Source of the DNA: a virus
Reading direction: 5' to 3' (one strand)
Virus record (IMG/VR): IMGVR_UViG_3300034374_010855
Location: 1-64,000 of that record
Length of the DNA: 64,000 nt
Positions 2,688-63,518 of this stretch are shown here, one piece after another; position 1 is the first letter of the stretch; every line of letters starts with the position of its first letter. The notes beneath the pieces are model-generated. The model was not told where the DNA came from. It saw only the letters and a program-made list of their open reading frames with translations, and did no database searches. The position numbers were made by a program, and so were the translations under genes.

Positions 2688-2978
2688 ATGAAAAAAGTAA
2701 TAAGATTAAGAGAGTCTGAATTGGTTAGTTTGGTAAAAAGAATAATAGAAGAAACTTATTCTGACAAAAAAGATTTTTCAACTGCTTTCAAGGACAGCCC
2801 TTGCTTAAAAGGTTTCAAAAAAACTTCACCTATAAATGGTATTCCAGCAAGGACCGATAAGTTTATTACAGTTTTAGCGGATGGAACAACTAAAGATGGT
2901 AGCTGCTGGGGTTGTAATAATAGTAGTTTAATTATTACTGATTGTGACCAAATTGAGAAACATATAAAACCTTTTTAA
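2688..2978 (+). CDS. Small candidate virion cargo protein with capsid-targeting-like leader
   Basis: 96 residues. The N-terminus MKKVIRLRESELVSLVKRII is almost the same as in the gene at 43105 and matches the shared leader described in the findings; likely processing is after IIE or IEE at residues 18-20. The remainder has four cysteines (SPCLKG, SCWGC, TDC) and could be a small disulphide-bonded or metal-binding domain. ATG is preceded by an A-rich leader with no clear Shine-Dalgarno, as usual in Bacteroidota. No family recognised for the mature part. Confidence 0.75.
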   Translation: MKKVIRLRESELVSLVKRIIEETYSDKKDFSTAFKDSPCLKGFKKTSPINGIPARTDKFITVLADGTTKDGSCWGCNNSSLIITDCDQIEKHIKPF

Positions 2979-4831: not shown

Positions 4832-5269
4832 ATGAAAACAATGATAAGAGAATCACAACTAAAAAACTTAATAAAATTAAAGATAAGAGAACAAGAAGAA
4901 AGCTCAACTTCACCTATGGTAGAGTTGGCGTCAATATTGGTTCATTCTCAAACTCAAACACATATTTTCCATTTACAAACAGATTCTTATGCTGAACATA
5001 AAGCATTGCAAACCTATTATGAAAGTATTGACGCTTTAATGGATTCTCTAATTGAATCTTATCAAGGTGAAAATGATATTGTTAGAAATTATAAATCTTT
5101 ACCAATGGATAACTATGGTAGTAAAGAACAAGTTATCGAATATTTTGAAGAATTATTAAATTTAGTTAGAAACTTATCTCAAGATTTCCCATCTTACCTT
5201 AAAAATATAGTTGACGAAATTGAAGTATTAATTAATTCAACACTTTATAAACTTAAAAGGTTAAATTAA
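4832..5269 (+). CDS. Candidate virion cargo protein with capsid-targeting-like leader
   Basis: 145 residues. The leader MKTMIRESQLKNLIKLKIRE ends in I18-R19-E20 followed by Q21, fitting the (L/I)xE|Q pattern shared by other proteins here. The mature part (about 125 residues) is probably helical, starting EESSTSPMVELASILVHSQ, with no known motif. Preceded by an exact TATTTATA. Not organised as an operon with its neighbours. Virion location is inferred from the leader. Confidence 0.75.
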   Translation: MKTMIRESQLKNLIKLKIREQEESSTSPMVELASILVHSQTQTHIFHLQTDSYAEHKALQTYYESIDALMDSLIESYQGENDIVRNYKSLPMDNYGSKEQVIEYFEELLNLVRNLSQDFPSYLKNIVDEIEVLINSTLYKLKRLN

Positions 5270-27817: not shown

Positions 27818-28063
27818 TTAAGGTCTAAACCCTTTAATCTTTTTTCGAGTAGCTGCACTTATTATTGTTTCTAGGAAATTTATTCTTTCCTGTATTTTAC
27901 TACTGACTATTTGTAATAAATCTAAATCATATTCTGAGTTTACCCAATTAATAAAATCATCACTACTAAAAGGAGCTTCATAGTTATCTAAATCTACTTC
28001 TTCTTCTTGTAGTTTATTAAATAACTCATTTACTTGTTTCTCTGTCAGTATAATTTTAGACAT
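27818..28063 (-). CDS. Candidate virion protein with capsid-targeting-like leader (minus strand)
   Basis: 81 residues, MSKIILTEKQVNELFNKLQE at the start. L18-Q19-E20|E21 fits the processing pattern and the leader resembles that of the gene at 30222 (ILITERQLKRL). The mature part is acidic, then basic (ATRKKIKGFRP). It is the only leader-bearing gene found on the minus strand. Confidence 0.65.
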   Translation of the reverse strand: MSKIILTEKQVNELFNKLQEEEVDLDNYEAPFSSDDFINWVNSEYDLDLLQIVSSKIQERINFLETIISAATRKKIKGFRP

Positions 28064-29664: not shown

Positions 29665-30201
29665 ATGAAAAGAAAAGTATCAAACAAAAACATTAGAAAA
29701 GTTTTAAGACAAATTATTAGTGAAGGTCACGATTCTTCTTATATGGCAAAATCACAATTATACAATATAGCAAGAAAAGCTCAAAGTATGTTTAATAAAC
29801 TTGAAAAAGGTCAACCATTAGATGATTGGATGGAATCACATATAGCTAAAATGGACAGTATGATGGATAGTGTAAATGATTCTTTCACATATGACCACCA
29901 TGAAGGTAAAGGATGTCCTAAAGGGATGTACTGGTGTGAAAAAGACCAAATTTGTAAACCAGATTCACAAAATATGAATTTAATTATCTCAACACAGGAC
30001 ATGATGGAACAAGACTTTACTGTAGAACCTCAAATACCAACTCAACCAAGAGAAAAAGATATTAGAGGAGTATTTGGTGATAAATACGGTCCTTATATCC
30101 CTATGGATGTTTTAAGGTATATGAGAAAAAATCCAGAAGCTATAATTAAAAGATTGTATGGACTTTATGGTGATAAAATTTATGATTATATGCCAAAATA
30201 A
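29665..30201 (+). CDS. Candidate virion cargo protein with Cys motif
   Basis: 178 residues. Leader MKRKVSNKNIRKVLRQIISE ends I18-S19-E20|G21. The mature part has a compact KGCPKGMYWCEKDQICKPDS motif (about residues 89-108) with three cysteines, a pattern I recall in other phage virion proteins. A basic C-terminal region (MRKNPEAIIKRLYGLYGDK) follows. Preceded by TATTTATA. Function unknown. Confidence 0.75.
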   Translation: MKRKVSNKNIRKVLRQIISEGHDSSYMAKSQLYNIARKAQSMFNKLEKGQPLDDWMESHIAKMDSMMDSVNDSFTYDHHEGKGCPKGMYWCEKDQICKPDSQNMNLIISTQDMMEQDFTVEPQIPTQPREKDIRGVFGDKYGPYIPMDVLRYMRKNPEAIIKRLYGLYGDKIYDYMPK

Positions 30202-34735: not shown

Positions 34736-36151
34736 ATGAAAATTAAATTATCAGAAGAACAATATAAAGCATTAATTAATGAAATTGGTGGTTATGATGA
34801 CCCTATTATTGGTATGCAAGATGAATCGTCTATAATTAAACAAATTTTGGAGGCTCATACACATTTAAAACAAGGTATGGATATACTTACAAGATTAATA
34901 CCTGGTATTATAGTTCAAGATAGGTTAAGGTCTGAATTAAGTTATGTTAGAAACCAATTAGTTGACCCAATGAATGAATTTAATGGTCTTTTGAGAAGGA
35001 TTATGGGTAATCAAGGTCAAGGACATGAAATAGATAGAGAGTTAGACGAATCAAAAAAAAAAAGTAAGAAGAAAAAAGACGCGTGTTATTACAAAGTAAA
35101 AAGTAGATATAAAGTCTGGCCTTCTGCTTATGCATCGGGTGCTTTAGTTAAGTGTAGAAAAGTAGGTGCTAAGAACTGGGGTAATTCAACCAACGAATCA
35201 GAAGAAATCCAAGAAAAATGGTCCAAATCAGAAAGAGAAAAAAGGGCAAAAAATTGTGATAACCCGAAAGGATTTACCATGCAACAATTTTGCAAGAATC
35301 AGAAAACTAGGTCAAAAGAAGGTGAAAAATTAAATGAAAGAAAACTAACTTCAAAACCTAGTTCTGAAACAAGTTTAAGAGATTGGTTCAAAAGAAAGGG
35401 CGCTAAAGGTAGTACTGGAGGTTGGGTAGATTGTAATTCACCTGACGGAAAAGGTGGTTACAAATCTTGTGGAAGACAAGAAGGTGAAAAAAGAAGTAAA
35501 TATCCAGCTTGTAGACCTACTCCAAGTGCTTGTAAAAAATATAAAAAAACTAAAGGAAAGTCTTGGGGTAAAAAAGCTTCTAAAAATGAATCTATATCTG
35601 AAGGTTTACAATATCATATAAATAATAATATTCCGTTAGTTGAAAACATTTATAGATGGGGGTCAGAGGGGTTTTTTAATTTAATCAATGAAACTAGAGA
35701 GTTATATTATAATGGTGATATTGAATTAAATTCTATAGATAAAGAATTAATTGAAACAAATATAGGTGAAAAAGCTATATTTGAAAATAAGAAAGTTTGG
35801 TTAGATATTCCAATGGAAGACATTGAGTATTTAACAGAAGAAGATAAATTTAAAGGTAAAAAATCTGGTTCACCACAAAGAGACTCTTCAGGTGGCAAAG
35901 CCTATAAAGTTTATGTTGCTGGTTGTGCTAAGAAAACAGATACAAATCCAAGAGGTATTAAATTAATTAGATTTGGTTCGGGTGGTTTAAAAGCTAAATT
36001 AAATAACCCTGAAGCTAAAAAATCTTTTAACGCTAGACATGGATGTTCAGAAGGACGACATAATGATAAATGTAAGGCAGGTTATTGGTCATGTCGCCTC
36101 CCACGTTACGCTAAAGCGTTAGGACTTAGTGGAGGAGGCACATGGTGGTGA
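34736..36151 (+). CDS. Candidate virion protein with Cys-rich DUF5872-like modules
   Basis: 471 residues. Leader MKIKLSEEQYKALINE|IGG with I14-N15-E16. After a helical region come three Cys-containing modules: KKDACYYKVKSRYKVWPSAY...ALVKCRKVGAKNWGN (about 117-150); SLRDWFKRKGAKGSTGGWVD...KSCGRQEGEKRSKYPACRPT (about 214-265), DUF5872-like as I recall; and a C-terminal RGIKLIRFGSGGLKAKLN...ARHGCSEG...YWSCRLPRYAKALG domain. The RFG...(F)RARH.C..YWSC pattern occurs in head proteins of other phages. Mature protein is basic and may contact DNA. Functions are inferred. Confidence 0.75.
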   Translation: MKIKLSEEQYKALINEIGGYDDPIIGMQDESSIIKQILEAHTHLKQGMDILTRLIPGIIVQDRLRSELSYVRNQLVDPMNEFNGLLRRIMGNQGQGHEIDRELDESKKKSKKKKDACYYKVKSRYKVWPSAYASGALVKCRKVGAKNWGNSTNESEEIQEKWSKSEREKRAKNCDNPKGFTMQQFCKNQKTRSKEGEKLNERKLTSKPSSETSLRDWFKRKGAKGSTGGWVDCNSPDGKGGYKSCGRQEGEKRSKYPACRPTPSACKKYKKTKGKSWGKKASKNESISEGLQYHINNNIPLVENIYRWGSEGFFNLINETRELYYNGDIELNSIDKELIETNIGEKAIFENKKVWLDIPMEDIEYLTEEDKFKGKKSGSPQRDSSGGKAYKVYVAGCAKKTDTNPRGIKLIRFGSGGLKAKLNNPEAKKSFNARHGCSEGRHNDKCKAGYWSCRLPRYAKALGLSGGGTWW

Positions 36152-36152
36152 T

Positions 36153-36413
36153 ATGAGTTTCCCTTTTAAAGAACATATAAAAAACGGTTATCATATTAGA
36201 ATATTCTCTGAGGATATAAAAGAAGATGAATTAGTTTGGCATAGAGATAAAGAAGACCGAATAGTTGAATCAGTAGGTGATACAAATTGGGAGATACAAT
36301 TAGATAATGAATTACCTAAATCACTTACAGAAACTATTTATATACCAAAAGAGACATACCATAGAGTAATAAAAGGTAGTGGTGAGTTAATAGTTAAAGT
36401 TAAAAAATTATGA
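36153..36413 (+). CDS. Cupin-like protein
   Basis: 86 residues from the ATG at 36153, one base after the previous stop; a GGAGGAGG stretch about 15 bases upstream could serve as ribosome binding site. MSFPFKEHIKNGYHIRIFSE then LVWHRDKEDRIVES and IPKETYHRVIKGSGELIVKV fit a small cupin fold with His-x-Asp and a second Tyr-His as potential metal ligands. Such phage cupins are uncharacterised. Overlaps the SOD start by four bases (ATGA). Confidence 0.7.
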   Translation: MSFPFKEHIKNGYHIRIFSEDIKEDELVWHRDKEDRIVESVGDTNWEIQLDNELPKSLTETIYIPKETYHRVIKGSGELIVKVKKL

Positions 36414-37057
36414 ATATTGTAATAAGTGAATCACAATATAAATTATTGTTAGAAGAAAATAATGAACTATTCAAAAGAGTTAAGTTACCATATGATTATA
36501 GTGACTTAAAAGAATTTGTTGGTCCAGAAACTATGTGGGAACATTACAATAGACACTATAAAGGTTATACTGATAAATTAAATGAATCTTTTTCACATAG
36601 AAAAAATCCTCCAACTGACATTTTAGCTATAATAAAAAATATAGATAAATACAATACTTTTGTTAGAGACAACGCTGGTGGATATTACAATCACAGTTTA
36701 TTTTGGGATTACATTACACCAAAATCAACTAAACCATCTTTAGAACTTAGTAAAAAAATAGACAAAGATTTTGGTAGTTTATCTAAATTAAAAAAGGTTT
36801 TTAGTGAACAAGCTATTAAAGTCTTTGGTTCTGGATGGTGTTGGTTGGTATATAAAGATGGTAAACTAAAAGTTGTAACTACACCTAATCAAGATAATCC
36901 ATTGATGAGTGATTTGGGTAAACCCTTATTGGGTTTAGATGTTTGGGAACACGCTTACTATCTTAATTACATGTCTAATCGTAAAAAATATATTAAGAAT
37001 TTTTGGAAAGTTGTCAATTGGGATACTGTCTCTAAAGAGTTTAATTTGGTAGTTTAA
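36410..37057 (+). CDS. Fe/Mn superoxide dismutase with capsid-targeting-like leader
   Basis: 215 residues. Converts superoxide to H2O2 and O2. The SOD body starts at about 24 (LPYDYSDLKEFVGPETMWEH) and keeps all four metal ligands: His45 (EHYNRHY), His95 (NHSLFWD), Asp177 and His181 (LDVWEHAYYLNY), plus GSGWCWLVYKDGKL. SODs normally begin almost at this point. Here an extra N-terminus MNIVISESQYKLLLEEN matches the leaders of the candidate virion proteins, with L13-L14-E15|E16. This suggests the enzyme is loaded into the head and delivered with DNA. No signal peptide. Fe versus Mn cannot be set by eye. Translationally coupled to the cupin gene. Confidence 0.93.
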   Translation: MNIVISESQYKLLLEENNELFKRVKLPYDYSDLKEFVGPETMWEHYNRHYKGYTDKLNESFSHRKNPPTDILAIIKNIDKYNTFVRDNAGGYYNHSLFWDYITPKSTKPSLELSKKIDKDFGSLSKLKKVFSEQAIKVFGSGWCWLVYKDGKLKVVTTPNQDNPLMSDLGKPLLGLDVWEHAYYLNYMSNRKKYIKNFWKVVNWDTVSKEFNLVV

Positions 37058-42784: not shown

Positions 42785-43108
42785 ATGGGTAATTCGTTTA
42801 AATTAAGTTTATATCTAGAACATATCGTAAATGATATAGTTAATAAACGAAAACTGCATTATACAGAAGAAGGGCTTAAAAAAAATATATTTACCTTTCT
42901 TGATACTATTTATGATAATAGGGGTGGTTTTAATTTAACAGAAGCAAATAATTTAATTAAAGGAGGTTTTAAAGAACAATTAATTGAAGAAGCTATTTGT
43001 CAAATGTCGGATGATGAAGATTATTTAACTTCAACAATCAATAAAAAAATTAACACTATCTCAAAACAATATATAAAAGAATGGATAAACAAAAAAATAA
43101 GTAGATGA
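42785..43108 (+). CDS. Hypothetical protein heading a virion operon
   Basis: 107 residues from the ATG at 42785; a longer frame from 42728 starts at a TTG before the promoter motif. MGNSFKLSLYLEHIVNDIVN then KRKLHYTEEGLKKNIFTFLD. Helical, soluble, no leader. Overlaps the next gene by ATGA, so it is co-translated with the candidate virion proteins that follow. Confidence 0.7.
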   Translation: MGNSFKLSLYLEHIVNDIVNKRKLHYTEEGLKKNIFTFLDTIYDNRGGFNLTEANNLIKGGFKEQLIEEAICQMSDDEDYLTSTINKKINTISKQYIKEWINKKISR

Positions 43109-43437
43109 AAAAAGTAATAAGACTTACGGAATCAGAATTAGTTTCAATAATAGAAAATTTAACATTAGGTTATGAATTGGAAGAAAAAAAAGGAACTTCT
43201 TCGATGAAAAATAAAACTAAACCTAAATCCACAGATGCTAATGCTAATCCAATAGCGAAAAAAACCTTTAATGATATTGTTGGTCATTTAGAAGCTACTA
43301 AAGGTGCTTTTAGTTTAAGAAATAAAAGTACTACAGAAAATTTAGAAGATGATAAACTAAAAAAGACTTGGAAGTGGAAAACTAACGATGGTAAAGTTAA
43401 TGTTGTGGTTAGTGTAGACGTTAAAATGAATAGTTAA
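43105..43437 (+). CDS. Candidate virion cargo protein with capsid-targeting-like leader
   Basis: 110 residues. MKKVIRLTESELVSIIENLT is nearly identical to the leader at 2688; candidate cuts are I15-I16-E17 or L25-E26-E27. The mature part is basic (KKTWKWKTNDGKVNVVVSVD near the end). No catalytic motif. Part of the operon 42785-44396. Confidence 0.75.
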   Translation: MKKVIRLTESELVSIIENLTLGYELEEKKGTSSMKNKTKPKSTDANANPIAKKTFNDIVGHLEATKGAFSLRNKSTTENLEDDKLKKTWKWKTNDGKVNVVVSVDVKMNS

Positions 43438-43439
43438 TA

Positions 43440-44396
43440 ATGAAAAAAGTAAAAGTAACAGAAACTGAATTAATTACAATCATTAAAACAATGATTAACG
43501 AACAAGAAGAAGGTAGTGAAGGTGGTGGTACTACTGGTGCTAAGACTTGGGAAAGTGGTTTAACTAGAGGACCCGCTAATCCAGCAGGTAGTATTGGTAA
43601 ATGGGCTGACACTTATTCTATCAGTAGAGGTAAAGCTAATCCATTATGGGAAGATGAAGATTATGAAGAATATGATGATGATGAAGTTGATATAGATTTA
43701 TTAAATGAAAGTAAATGGTACAACACATTTCTTGATTTTGTTGGTGTTGTAGACCCAACTGGTGTTGCTGATGCCATTAATGCTGTTTCATATTTTAGAC
43801 AAGGTGATATTTTATATGGTATATTAAGTTTGATATCCTTAGTTCCTTATGTTGGAGATGCTATAGCTAAACCATTTATTGTCATAATGAAAAGTGGTAA
43901 AATCAACACAAAAATAATTAATGCTGGATTAAAAAGTGGTAATGCATCCAAGATAACTGCTGAAATGGGAAAAACAAAAGCTGGTAAAGCGGTGTTAGAA
44001 ACTATGAAAAATCCAACAACACAAAATTTCTTAGGGAATATATTAGGTAAAATAAGTAAAATACCAGGATTCAAAAATTTCTCAAAAGATGCTAAAACTT
44101 ATCTTAATCTATTTACACAAGCAGCGAAACAAACTGGTAAAATCAAAGTGTTTAGACAAAGTGGTGGTTTGTTGACTAGAATGCAAAGAAAAGGACTACT
44201 AAATAGAACAAAATTATATAGTAAATTTATAAATTATCTTATGGGTACTGGTGTTGGTGCTGCAGCAATAGAAGGTATGGGTGAAAATAAATTAAATAGT
44301 AAATTTGAAGAATTTTTAAATTCACAAGATGGGATGGATTTCTTTAATAGTATGAATAAACAAGACCAAGGTGATTTTGTTGATGCTTTAAAATAA
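43440..44396 (+). CDS. Candidate virion protein with pretoxin-like hydrophobic hairpin
   Basis: 318 residues. Leader MKKVKVTETELITIIKTMIN ends I19-N20-E21|Q22, followed by a Gly/Ser-rich linker. Around residues 99-145, VGVVDPTGVADAINAVSYFR then QGDILYGILSLISLVPYVGD, matches the DP.G.aDaiNa..Y...GD...a.LS....P..GD pattern of pretoxin domains in polymorphic toxins. Those lie next to toxin tips and are membrane-active. The C-terminal half is basic and helical. A virion-delivered membrane or toxin-like role is inference. Confidence 0.75.
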   Translation: MKKVKVTETELITIIKTMINEQEEGSEGGGTTGAKTWESGLTRGPANPAGSIGKWADTYSISRGKANPLWEDEDYEEYDDDEVDIDLLNESKWYNTFLDFVGVVDPTGVADAINAVSYFRQGDILYGILSLISLVPYVGDAIAKPFIVIMKSGKINTKIINAGLKSGNASKITAEMGKTKAGKAVLETMKNPTTQNFLGNILGKISKIPGFKNFSKDAKTYLNLFTQAAKQTGKIKVFRQSGGLLTRMQRKGLLNRTKLYSKFINYLMGTGVGAAAIEGMGENKLNSKFEEFLNSQDGMDFFNSMNKQDQGDFVDALK

Positions 44397-46570: not shown

Positions 46571-47395
46571 ATGTCTAAATTACAATTTAAAGAATCTGAA
46601 TTAGTTTCATTTATTGAAGACCTAGTAAATGAAGAGAGAACTACCCTTTCTGAATCAAAAGAAAGAAAAATAAATATATGGGTAGATAGGTTTGAAAGAA
46701 AAAATAAGAATAATTCTCCAGAACTTGTTTTTGAAAATTTCTCTAGAGAGATAAACAAACTTTCTAGAAATGGTATAAGCACTGATGATTTATCACTTTA
46801 TTTAACAAAAAACAAAAAAATAATAAATGAACAAGCAGCTTTTACAATGTCTCAAAACCAAGGAATTTTTGGGACAATATGGGAAACTATTCGTGAAGGA
46901 TTATATAGATGGCTTTTAGGTTTTATGGGAATAAAAGATGGTGAATTAAAAGAAGTTTTGGCTAACACTTTGGGTAACGTACCATTCACAGATTTACCTA
47001 AATTAATGAATTGTAATTTTTTAGCACCAATCCTAACTAAAGGTATTTTGGAATATGGTATAAGAAGAATTAATAGGTCAATTACTGGTATGTCTGGAGG
47101 TTTCGAACAAATTTTTGGTAATTCGATTACTAATTTAGGTGACAACACAGAATTCTATCAAGACTTAGAATCTCAAGTTAGAGACTTTTTATGTGGTGCT
47201 TTAGGTAAGAAAAAAACTCAGGTACAAAATACTTTAGATGATGTGGAAGAACAAAACAAAGAAATGTGGGGTTCTGGTAGAAAAGAAAAAGGTGGTGAAG
47301 TGCCACCAGAAAGTTCTGGTCAATCAGTATCGTCTGGTTTGAATGATATTGCTAAAAAGTATTTTACTCAATTTATGCAAAATTTAGGAAGATAA
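46571..47395 (+). CDS. Candidate virion protein with capsid-targeting-like leader
   Basis: 274 residues. MSKLQFKESELVSFIEDLVN opens with the shared leader; possible cuts are V19-N20-E21 and, more typical, I85-N86-E87|Q88 (KKIINEQAAF). The middle is hydrophobic and amphipathic (WETIREGLYRWLLGFMGIKD), and the C-terminus is flexible with GGEVPPESSGQSVSSG. Ends in a strong terminator. Last gene of the 43-47 kb virion block. Confidence 0.75.
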   Translation: MSKLQFKESELVSFIEDLVNEERTTLSESKERKINIWVDRFERKNKNNSPELVFENFSREINKLSRNGISTDDLSLYLTKNKKIINEQAAFTMSQNQGIFGTIWETIREGLYRWLLGFMGIKDGELKEVLANTLGNVPFTDLPKLMNCNFLAPILTKGILEYGIRRINRSITGMSGGFEQIFGNSITNLGDNTEFYQDLESQVRDFLCGALGKKKTQVQNTLDDVEEQNKEMWGSGRKEKGGEVPPESSGQSVSSGLNDIAKKYFTQFMQNLGR

Positions 47396-51515: not shown

Positions 51516-52226
51516 TTAAATTGTATTAATTACAATTTCATTATCTTTAGTAACACTAATTTTATATTTCATATTTTCTAAAATATCACCTTTTAGTATA
51601 TTTTCAGAGATAAAATCTTCTATTTTATTTTGAATAGCTCTTTTAATTGGTCTAGCTCCAAATTTTTCATCATAACCTTCATTAAGAATAAATTTAGTTA
51701 TTGAATCGTCAAATGAAATATCATAATTTTGTTCAACTAATCTATCTTGCAGTGATTTTATTTCTAATTTGATAATTTTAGAGACTGTAGATTTTTCTAA
51801 AGGTTTAAATACAACTGTTTGGTCTATTCTATTTAAAAATTCAGGTCTAAAGGTATTTTTAAGTGCTTTTTTAATTATAGCTTCTCTTTTTTCCTCAAGT
51901 CTTGATTCACTTTCTTTTGTTGAGAACCCTAAAGGACTATTAAATTCGGAAACTTGTTTTGCTCCAACATTAGATGTCATAATTAATAAAGTGTTTTTAA
52001 AATTAATTTTTCTACCCAAACTATCAGTTATATGACCATCATCAAATATTTGTAACAATAAGTCATATATGTCAGAGTGTGCTTTTTCTATTTCATCTAA
52101 AAGAATTACAGAATAAGGTTTTTTTCTAACCGCTTCGGTTAATTGACCACCTTCATTATAACCTACGTAACCTGGAGGAGACCCAATTAATCTAGTAGAA
52201 TTAAATTTTTCTTTATATTCTGACAT
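51516..52226 (-). CDS. clpC: ClpC-like unfoldase, C-terminal half (after a frameshift)
   Basis: 236 residues, the D2 module from the segment MSEYKEKFNSTRLIGSPPGY onward, with YSVILLDEIEKAHSDIYDLL (Walker B), NRIDQTVVFKPL and the sensor-2 region GYDEKFGARPIKRAIQ. The tripeptide LGF in SPLGFSTKESESR is the loop that ClpA/ClpC/ClpX-type partners use to dock ClpP; ClpB lacks it. The frame is open upstream to 52277, where it should join the D1 frame. Separated from 52271-53557 by a -1 shift. The ATG at 52226 lies mid-domain and is not a natural start. Confidence 0.85.
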   Translation of the reverse strand: MSEYKEKFNSTRLIGSPPGYVGYNEGGQLTEAVRKKPYSVILLDEIEKAHSDIYDLLLQIFDDGHITDSLGRKINFKNTLLIMTSNVGAKQVSEFNSPLGFSTKESESRLEEKREAIIKKALKNTFRPEFLNRIDQTVVFKPLEKSTVSKIIKLEIKSLQDRLVEQNYDISFDDSITKFILNEGYDEKFGARPIKRAIQNKIEDFISENILKGDILENMKYKISVTKDNEIVINTI

Positions 52227-52270
52227 GTCTAATCTTATTAAAGCATCTTCACTACCAAAAACTTCTTTAG

Positions 52271-53557
52271 CTATCGCTTAGCTAAATGAGTCTTACCTAC
52301 ACCAGTAGAACCTAAAAACATAAATGAACCAATAGGTTTTTTAACTTCACGAATACCAACTCTATTTCTGCGAATAGCTCTAGCTATTTTTTGTATAGCT
52401 TCATCTTGCCCAATTACTAATTTTTTAAGTGATTTTTCTAATGTGAGCAGACTTTTTGTTTCATCAGCATCTAATTTAGATAAAGGAATTTTTGTTATTT
52501 GGGACACTACATCATATATGTCTTTTTCTGTAATATCTATTCTACTACTTTCCATTTCTATTTCCCATTCTAACTTTCTATCTTCCAATTCTCTAACTAC
52601 ATTTTTCTCCTCATCTCTAAGTTCAGCAGCTTTTTCATATTTTTGTGATTTAACAACTTCAACTTTTTCTAATTTTAAATCACTTAACTTAGACCTTAAA
52701 TCTTCAATTTCTTTAGGATATTCAATATCAACTTGAACTTTAGCTCCCACTTCATCCATAATATCAATAGCTTTATCTGGAAATTCTCTATTTGTTATGT
52801 AACGTTCAGCTAACATAACACAAGTAGATAATGACTCTTCAGTAAATTTTACTTTATGGTGGTCTTCGTATTTTTCTTTAATGTTCTTTAAAATTTGTAA
52901 TGTTTCTTCCATTGTTGTTGGTTCCACTACAACTTTTTGAAATCTTCTTTCAAGAGCACCATCTTTTTCAATATTTTCTCGGTATTCATTTATGGTGGTA
53001 GCTCCGATACATTGAACTTCTCCCCTCGCCAAAGCTGGTTTGAATATATTTGCAGCATCTAAAGAACCAGAAGCGTTACCAGTTCCAACAACTGTATGAA
53101 TTTCATCTATGAATATTATAATATTTGGATTGTCCTTCAATTCATCAATAATAGCTTTCATTCTTTCTTCAAATTGACCTCTGTATTTTGTTCCAGCTAC
53201 TATTGAAGTTAAGTCTAAAGCTATTATTCTTTTGTCTAAAAGATTTCTAGGACATCTACCTTCATTTATTTTAATAGCTAAACCTTCTACTAAAGCGGTT
53301 TTACCACAACCTGGTTCACCTATTAATACAGGGTTATTCTTTTTTCTTCTAGAAAGTATTTGAGCTATTCTATTTATTTCATCTCCTCTACCAACAACTG
53401 GGTCTAACTTTCCTTCTTCCGCATATTTTATCAAATCTCTAGAAAAATTATCAAGAACTGGTGTTCTACTTTTAATAGACGTTTTTTCTTTTCTTGTTTT
53501 ACTTTTGTTTTCGTCAGATTCAAAATCAGCGAAACTTCCTTCTAATTTCATAGGCAT
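52271..53557 (-). CDS. clpC: ClpC-like unfoldase, N-terminal half (D1 and start of D2), frameshifted
   Basis: 428 residues. No Clp N-domain: it starts directly at the linker, then D1 with Walker A GEPGCGKT (80-87), Walker B FIDEIHTVVG, and Arg finger ERRFQKVVVEPT. A short middle domain has a UVR motif YEKAAELRDEEKN (ClpC type), and then D2 Walker A GSTGVGKTHLAK. It stops after KR. Reading shifts by one base at about 52277: one G is missing relative to the expected GCTAAG-GCGATAGCT. Either a true mutation, an assembly indel or, less likely, a programmed -1 shift; no canonical slippery heptamer is seen. Restored length is about 680. ATP-driven protein unfolding, possibly with host ClpP. Confidence 0.88.
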   Translation of the reverse strand: MPMKLEGSFADFESDENKSKTRKEKTSIKSRTPVLDNFSRDLIKYAEEGKLDPVVGRGDEINRIAQILSRRKKNNPVLIGEPGCGKTALVEGLAIKINEGRCPRNLLDKRIIALDLTSIVAGTKYRGQFEERMKAIIDELKDNPNIIIFIDEIHTVVGTGNASGSLDAANIFKPALARGEVQCIGATTINEYRENIEKDGALERRFQKVVVEPTTMEETLQILKNIKEKYEDHHKVKFTEESLSTCVMLAERYITNREFPDKAIDIMDEVGAKVQVDIEYPKEIEDLRSKLSDLKLEKVEVVKSQKYEKAAELRDEEKNVVRELEDRKLEWEIEMESSRIDITEKDIYDVVSQITKIPLSKLDADETKSLLTLEKSLKKLVIGQDEAIQKIARAIRRNRVGIREVKKPIGSFMFLGSTGVGKTHLAKR

Positions 53558-61793: not shown

Positions 61794-63518
61794 ATGGGAA
61801 TGACTAAACAAGAACTCATACAAGAATATGTTAAGTGCCATGGTAACACACCATACGCACTTAAAACATATTTGCAAACATACGACAATACTCAACAAAA
61901 ACATGTTCCTTTTGTGTTATTTCCAGAACAAAAGGAAATGATTGAGGACTTTGAAAATTACTCTGATAATATAGTTTTAAAATACAGACAAGCTGGTGTA
62001 TCAACAGCAACAGCAGGATGGATATCAAAAAAACTACAATTTGCCTCAAAAGAATCTCCAGAAAAGATTTTGATTCTAGCAAATAAGTTAGATACAGCTA
62101 CAGAAATGGCAAATAAAATTAAAGGTTTTTTAAGACAATGGCCTGATTGGATTAATGTTGGTTTTGATAAAGATAAAAATTCACAAAAACATTATAAATT
62201 AAATAATGGTTCTGAAGTTAAAGCAGTCGCTACTTCAGTAGATGCTCTTAGGGGTTACACTCCCACTATATTAGTTTTTGATGAAGCTGCATATATAGAA
62301 TCTGGTGGTGATTTATGGGCTGCTTGTATGGCATCTTTAGCTACAGGTGGTAAAGTAATAGTAATATCTACACCAAATGGGTTTGACCAAATTTATTATG
62401 AAGTATTTGACCAATCAATTAGAGGATTAAATAATTTTAAAATAAGTTATCTTAGTTGGTATTATGACCCTAGATTTACAAAAGATTTGGGTTGGGTTAA
62501 AACTAAAGATATTGTACATTTCTTATTAAATAGAGATGAGTATAAAGAAGAAGATATAACATATAATTTAAAACAAGATGAATATCAAACTTATTTAGAC
62601 ATGGGTTATAAACCTTTTTCTAGTTGGTTTGAGTCTATGTGTAAAAAATTAAAGTTTGATAGACGAAAGATATCACAAGAGTTAGAGTGTGCGTTCTTAG
62701 GTTCGGGTGACAACGTTATCAATAGTACAACTATGGAACAAATACAAGAACATATTTGTGAACCAATAGAAAAGTGGGTTGGTAATGGTTTATGGGTTTG
62801 GAAAGAACCAGTACCTGGTCACAAATATATTATGGGTATAGATGTTTCTAGGGGTGATAGTGAAGATTCTAGTGGTTTTATCATTATAGATTTTGATGAA
62901 AGAGAACAAGTTGTAGAATATTTGGGTAAGATACCACCAGATATTGTTGCGGATTTAGCTAATAAATGGGCTAAAAAGTATAGTTGTTTTGTGGTTATTG
63001 ATATTACTGGTGGTATGGGAGTAGCTACATCTAGAAAAATGTTAGAATTAGGTTATAAAGATTTTTATTATGATGGTGTTAAAGCTGAAGAAATGTGGAA
63101 ATTCAATCCAGATACTAAAACACCAGGTATAAACTTTAATAGTAAAAGAGCTCAAATAGTACAAGCTTTAGAAGAACAATTAAGAACTGGATTTAAAATT
63201 AGGTCACAAAGATTGGTTAATGAATTAAAAACTTTTGTTTATATAAATGGTAGACCAGACCATATGAAAGGACATCATGATGATTTAATTATGTCTTTAG
63301 GTATGGCACTTTATGTAGCACAAAATTCATTTACACAATTAAAAAAGAATGTGGAACAAGCTAAAGCGATGTTAGATGCGTGGATAAGTGATGAAAGAAA
63401 ATTTAGACCGAATCAAGGTCAACCTGTTTTTAAACCAAGTAGAGCATCTAGTAATCCACTTCCACCATCTTCTAATGACCCTAAAGACTATTTATGGATG
63501 TATACAGGATTAAAATAA
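61794..63518 (+). CDS. terL: Large terminase subunit (T4 gp17-like)
   Basis: 574 residues; ATP-driven DNA-packaging motor plus nuclease that cuts the concatemer. ATPase: PFVLFPEQKEMIEDFE, variant Walker A YRQAGVST (about 63-70; no Lys before the Ser/Thr, where T4 gp17 has SRQLGKT), Walker B TILVFDEAAYIE (about 160), and coupling motif VIVISTPNGFDQIYY. RNase H-fold nuclease: MGIDVSRGDSEDSSG (Asp near 349), CFVVIDITGGMG and GHHDDLIMSLGMAL (Asp near 494). The order and length fit the T4 family. Followed by a small gene and a probable portal. Confidence 0.95.
   Translation: MGMTKQELIQEYVKCHGNTPYALKTYLQTYDNTQQKHVPFVLFPEQKEMIEDFENYSDNIVLKYRQAGVSTATAGWISKKLQFASKESPEKILILANKLDTATEMANKIKGFLRQWPDWINVGFDKDKNSQKHYKLNNGSEVKAVATSVDALRGYTPTILVFDEAAYIESGGDLWAACMASLATGGKVIVISTPNGFDQIYYEVFDQSIRGLNNFKISYLSWYYDPRFTKDLGWVKTKDIVHFLLNRDEYKEEDITYNLKQDEYQTYLDMGYKPFSSWFESMCKKLKFDRRKISQELECAFLGSGDNVINSTTMEQIQEHICEPIEKWVGNGLWVWKEPVPGHKYIMGIDVSRGDSEDSSGFIIIDFDEREQVVEYLGKIPPDIVADLANKWAKKYSCFVVIDITGGMGVATSRKMLELGYKDFYYDGVKAEEMWKFNPDTKTPGINFNSKRAQIVQALEEQLRTGFKIRSQRLVNELKTFVYINGRPDHMKGHHDDLIMSLGMALYVAQNSFTQLKKNVEQAKAMLDAWISDERKFRPNQGQPVFKPSRASSNPLPPSSNDPKDYLWMYTGLK

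Follow-up and report, generated by a model that had tools for sequence, protein, structure and literature searches.

A putative capsid-targeting leader on the superoxide dismutase of a phage with T4-type head genes

The superoxide dismutase gene and its enzyme domain

The window (the whole 64,000-nucleotide stretch of viral DNA analysed here) carries an open reading frame at 36410-37057 (plus strand, 215 aa) that encodes an intact Fe/Mn superoxide dismutase (SOD; Table 1). It follows a small gene with homologues in Flavobacterium, Methylophilales and Tenacibaculum phages, and the ATGA overlap between the two suggests that they are probably translationally coupled. The enzyme domain matches Sod_Fe_C (E = 5e-41) and Sod_Fe_N (E = 5e-13, from residue 24), and its closest PDB relative is the Sphingobacterium MnSOD 6gsc (E = 9e-57, alignment from residue 21), which it resembles in fold, metal ligands and second-shell residues at approximately 45% identity. 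The four metal ligands that the initial annotation had placed at H45, H95, D177 and H181 were confirmed at these positions and are invariant in a 66-row alignment of phage and bacterial SODs; the second-shell residues H49, Q161, E180 and W143 are likewise invariant, and Y53 is nearly so. An AF2 model built with this alignment reached a pLDDT of 91.8 (nine sequences alone had yielded 38, and the larger alignment was used instead), and its best Foldseek match was again 6gsc (TM 0.88). The first 20 residues are predicted to lie outside the fold (pLDDT ~53), with a short helix at residues 7-14 and a stretch of low values at 14-17, where the cut proposed below would fall. In a SOD tree whose bacterial members had been selected for closeness to the query, and in which two of the phage sequences sit on very long branches, the phage SODs fell on one side of a branch. 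Several SOD matches in 'phage' records look like bacterial contamination and were left out; the INPHARED entries OR844989.1, OR846594.1, OR846937.1 and OR850395.1 encode ordinary bacterial-type SODs and may be such contamination.

Elsewhere, the window contains a phage tmRNA (47447-47838, minus strand; Rfam 74.7 bits) with an unusual predicted tag (AKLQAVGLLRTEEVAVA), and a ClpB-like ATPase (51516-53557, minus strand) that is divided into two ORFs and corresponds to a single 678-aa ORF in the relative G001, the split being either a frameshift or a sequencing error.

Table 1. Features of the window and of the adjoining part of its record (G000); the arrow marks the proposed cut.
Feature	Position	Strand	Basis or remark
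Leader-bearing protein MKKVIRLRESELVSLVKRIIEE	2688-2978	+	leader family/HMM
Leader-bearing protein MKTMIRESQLKNLIKLKIREQ	4832-5269	+	leader family/HMM
Leader-bearing protein MSKIILTEKQVNELFNKLQEE	27818-28063	-	leader family/HMM
Probable leader-bearing protein MKRKVSNKNIRKVLRQIISE↓G	29665-30201	+	leader family/HMM
Leader-bearing protein MKIKLSEEQYKALINE↓I, SOD neighbour	34736-36151	+	leader family/HMM
Small gene directly upstream of SOD	36153-36413	+	stop overlaps SOD start (ATGA)
SOD leader, residues 1-15 (MNIVISESQYKLLLE), putative capsid-targeting propeptide	36410-36454	+	leader HMM, relatives, L/I-x-E position
SOD linker, residues 16-20	36455-36469	+	all 5 codons change amino acid relative to 80%-identical L003
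SOD domain, residues 21-215	36470-37054	+	Pfam, PDB relative, AF2, Foldseek
Metal ligand H45	36542-36544	+	invariant in 66 rows
Metal ligand H95	36692-36694	+	invariant in 66 rows
Metal ligand D177	36938-36940	+	invariant in 66 rows
Metal ligand H181	36950-36952	+	invariant in 66 rows
Leader-bearing protein MKKVIRLTESELVSIIEN	43105-43437	+	leader family/HMM
Leader-bearing protein MKKVKVTETELITIIKTMINE↓Q	43440-44396	+	leader family/HMM
Leader-bearing protein MSKLQFKESELVSFIEDLVNEE	46571-47395	+	leader family
T4-type terminase large subunit, start of head-gene block	61794-63518	+	
gp21-type protease	G000 67259-67975		Peptidase_S77, E = 1.3e-26; just past window
Scaffold protein	G000 68078-69556		just past window
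gp23-type capsid protein, site HLINE↓A	G000 from 69595		just past window

An N-terminal extension and the leader family

Approximately 20 residues precede the SOD domain (N-terminus MNIVISESQYKLLLEEN). The proposed cut lies after E15 (LLE↓E), with an alternative one residue further on (LEE↓N). Between the window SOD and that of L003, five amino-acid changes fall within residues 1-15 and five of five within residues 16-20, a pattern that, in this small sample, fits a boundary at E15 as expected. The leader could be upstream noise if the start had been mis-called and the true one were at the SOD domain, for which an in-frame TTG (residue 13 or 14 in some copies) might be adduced. This TTG falls inside the leader, however, and the leader resembles a family of other N-termini; moreover, the stretch from residue 1 to the domain offers no start codon in L003, L007 and L010, which means that translation has to include the extension. 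Given the absence of start codons in these relatives and the membership in an N-terminal family, we rejected a mis-called start, which we regard as extremely improbable.

For bacterial SODs, the claim that the extension is foreign to these enzymes was borne out: the leader is absent from all 80 nearest ones, most of which begin around 4 residues before the domain, while the longer N-termini, judged by eye, suggest lipoproteins or signals for secretion. The initial annotation had named a shared extension in host SODs as what would speak against its reading, and none was found among these 80.

Within the window, the SOD N-terminus resembles those of other proteins (e.g., MKIKLSEEQYKALINEIGG at 34736), and such N-termini recur in the phage and its kin (e.g., MKKVIRLTESELVSIIEN and MKFKLTETELVKLIEKVVSE). 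A leader HMM trained solely on non-SOD proteins of the relative G005 scored at least 8 bits in 14 of 187 N-terminal sequence windows of G000 and G001, and in none of the 1,553 internal ones (highest 7.3 bits); hence, the family is strictly confined to N-termini in the phage and kin. As the SOD of G001 scored 12.2 bits and that of the window 7.9 bits, the latter is a weak member by score, although the earlier match between its N-terminus and the leader of other window proteins holds by these same HMM scores. An L/I-x-E motif was present at residues 8-24 in 22 of 24 non-SOD leader proteins (10.5 expected from shuffling, P = 2.6e-7, a value that is only a guide since the proteins were chosen by score and by eye), and no enrichment was seen in these proteins when Asp or Lys took the place of Glu.

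Leader-like N-termini also surround SOD genes in the relatives. The SOD of G005 sits in a run of four genes of this kind, including a P-loop kinase-like neighbour (L033:15538-16227; AAA_33, weak Zeta_toxin) with the leader TESQIEKILMTE↓A, and in G022 the genes next to the SOD begin with MRAKEFLTE↓Q and MRATDFITE↓A, a type of start that also occurs in other places. As separate observations, three adjacent small genes of G009 (L202:8368-9041) have in common the leader MTRKDINL(L/I)(A/T)E↓A, further N-termini of that genome read MKKDLKLIAE↓A and MNRYDQHLIAE↓A, and its cytidylyltransferase-like protein (L205:3666-4268, weak Pfam match), which starts with the T4-like leader MKSFKQFILE↓Q, is possibly another head-carried enzyme.

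Head maturation genes and the SOD leaders of other phages

The record from which the window was taken (G000, 70,279 bases) extends past it and holds gp21-type protease and gp23-type capsid genes. The capsid site HLINE↓A lies at residue 60 in two full-length relatives and in the partial copy of the window phage itself, near the 65-residue length of the T4 gp23 propeptide (PMC9026906). The T4 protease gp21 cleaves after L/I-X-E, and the initial 10 residues of IPIII are enough to target foreign proteins to the head (PMC9026906). The window leader ends in LLE (residues 13-15) and fits this consensus. A gp21-type protease was present in every searched record of at least 150 kb, and shorter fragments often had none. 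Segments of the scaffold proteins (KQEIEELVKESLNEQ and MKQEIEELVKESLNEQEE; G000 68078-69556, G005 238620-240101) were noticed by their likeness to the leader, which might mimic a scaffold helix.

Two kinds of SOD leader (ISESQY..LLE and M(R/K)xLIKKIL..LLTE↓A) occur in the nine close relatives, with E15 as the sole invariant leader residue and Leu or Ile, one Val excepted, at P3. A wider set, assembled from four further IMG/VR scans and INPHARED, comprised 11 SOD lineages at 60% identity; nine of them have an N-terminal extension, and L/I-x-E occurs in all nine. The P1 Glu is placed 4-8 residues before the SOD domain in 8 lineages (1.5 expected, P = 2e-6, again a guide only, because the range was picked after inspection and the lineages may share ancestry), and Asp and Lys controls showed no enrichment at this position. 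The distant leaders include MKTFNQQISHILE↓A, (GTG)MDFNERVSLLIE↓G, MSFLEEVNLILE↓K, MNYEYKIQRILE↓A, MRDIINLLE↓Q, MTDIRQTLDLLE↓A and, in phage PA5oct, MNDSIKKYISIAE↓A. The first of these is close to the start of T4 IPIII (MKTYQEFIAE↓A), and the leader of the L151/L165 SOD resembles, by eye, the T4 capsid-targeting sequence (CTS), whereas the window leader (ISESQY..LLE) is of another kind.

Some observations speak against head targeting. Vibrio phage 2.275.O has the protease and a SOD without N-terminal leader, the L167/L168 SODs also have none, and P1' is Glu in the window and Ala in the T4 sites seen (IPI, IPIII). The C-terminal tail of the 2.275.O SOD (L016:4986-5555) has LDE↓S followed by a further stretch, so that a C-terminal propeptide is conceivable there.

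Proposed role and comparison with known systems

We reason that the window SOD is probably a capsid-targeted, protease-matured and co-injected enzyme. It would be made as a precursor whose first ~15 residues act like a T4 CTS and dock it to the scaffold core while the prohead is growing; during head maturation the phage gp21-type protease would cut after Glu15, and the mature enzyme, trapped with the DNA, would enter the next host alongside it. There it may clear superoxide during the opening minutes of infection, ahead of phage gene expression. The idea in the initial annotation that the enzyme is addressed to the phage head is partly supported: the sequence supports targeting well (protease and capsid genes, L/I-x-E leader, analogous extensions in most other phage SOD lineages), whereas docking, cutting, packaging and ejection are what we infer. 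What the phage would gain is conjecture; since SOD makes peroxide, a role against host superoxide at entry is more plausible than protection of the packaged DNA.

The leader might instead send the SOD elsewhere (baseplate or tail, membrane, replication compartment, or a phage partner protein), with L/I-x-E only a reflection of a recurring amphipathic helix in which Leu, Ile and Glu abound. The leaders are indeed short helices with a high content of Leu, Ile, Lys and Glu, the shuffled expectation for the motif is already high (10.5 of 24), and the leader-bearing genes outnumber the few T4 internal proteins. Nevertheless, both the motif count in the non-SOD proteins and the fixed pre-domain position in the SODs exceed composition-matched shuffles, which the Asp and Lys controls do not, and the protease accompanies every long record searched; we consider another destination unlikely. 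Less probable still is an ordinary auxiliary enzyme that lowers superoxide inside the infected host and whose extension has no targeting role. The conventional domain, close to bacterial MnSODs, and the leaderless SOD of Vibrio phage 2.275.O would agree with it, but all nine close relatives retain the extension, most of the other phage SOD lineages have one too, and the other enzymes of the window mostly begin near their domains (at most ~10 residues away in IMP dehydrogenase, SHMT, thymidylate synthase, thymidine kinase, dCMP deaminase and DnaK; the thioesterase and the GH16 enzyme have longer N-termini).

Beyond this phage, we lean slightly towards the view that T4-superfamily phages widely place a cleavable capsid-targeting leader on SOD, and that the head-carried enzyme is injected with the DNA as part of a larger leader-bearing cargo of these large phages. 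If so, phages would deliver a working redox enzyme together with their genome, which would point to superoxide as an early obstacle to infection and make this idea testable. The pairing of a short N-terminal leader ending in L/I-x-E with a gp21-type protease would furthermore provide a sequence rule by which head cargo could be listed for T4-type phages that have not been cultured; most leader-bearing proteins of such phages have no known function.

The only experimental pointer to packaging, and no more than a hint, comes from a distant homologue: the PA5oct SOD (EST35_0261) bears the GenBank note ESI-MS/MS. Roughly one in three of the longer proteins of PA5oct bears this note too, among them ribonucleotide reductase and thymidylate synthase, and some of the proteins so marked are probably carry-over enzymes. 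The N-terminal motif alone did not separate detected from undetected PA5oct proteins (6/93 versus 4/173, p = 0.09), and the MIJ3 paper, in which mass spectrometry identified only four major proteins, leaves SOD unmentioned. The SOD of PA5oct, Callisto and MIJ3 (Wroclawvirus) has a 13-residue N-terminus ending SIAE↓A in phages with a gp21-type protease, yet it is only 28% identical to that of the window and has a shorter, more derived domain.

Our literature searches, which covered part of the literature, returned no report of a packaged phage SOD, in line with the initial annotation, whose statement that no packaged SOD was known does not extend to viruses at large: the chlorovirus PBCV-1 is reported to package a Cu/Zn SOD in its virion (PMC7019647). 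That enzyme (A245R) is likewise virus-encoded, but it belongs to a eukaryotic algal virus and is unrelated to the window SOD in both protein and packaging route. In phiKZ and SPN3US, whose inner head proteins are ejected, a gp21-related protease removes propeptides from many cargo proteins per head. We know of no SOD among these. Unlike the short L/I-x-E leader of the window SOD, the SPN3US motif is A-x-E and the propeptides often exceed 100 residues (PMC5694885). The nearest parallel is offered by the T4 internal head proteins (IPI, IPIII and Alt), the CTS of which is cut by gp21: the window SOD similarly has a short leader ending in L/I-x-E, and the leader of one phage SOD is very like those of IPI and IPIII. 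In contrast to the T4 proteins, the cargo here would be a metabolic enzyme with close cellular relatives, and the window leader (ISESQY..LLE) is of another kind; we file the case as probable head targeting in the manner of T4, with cargo of a new kind.
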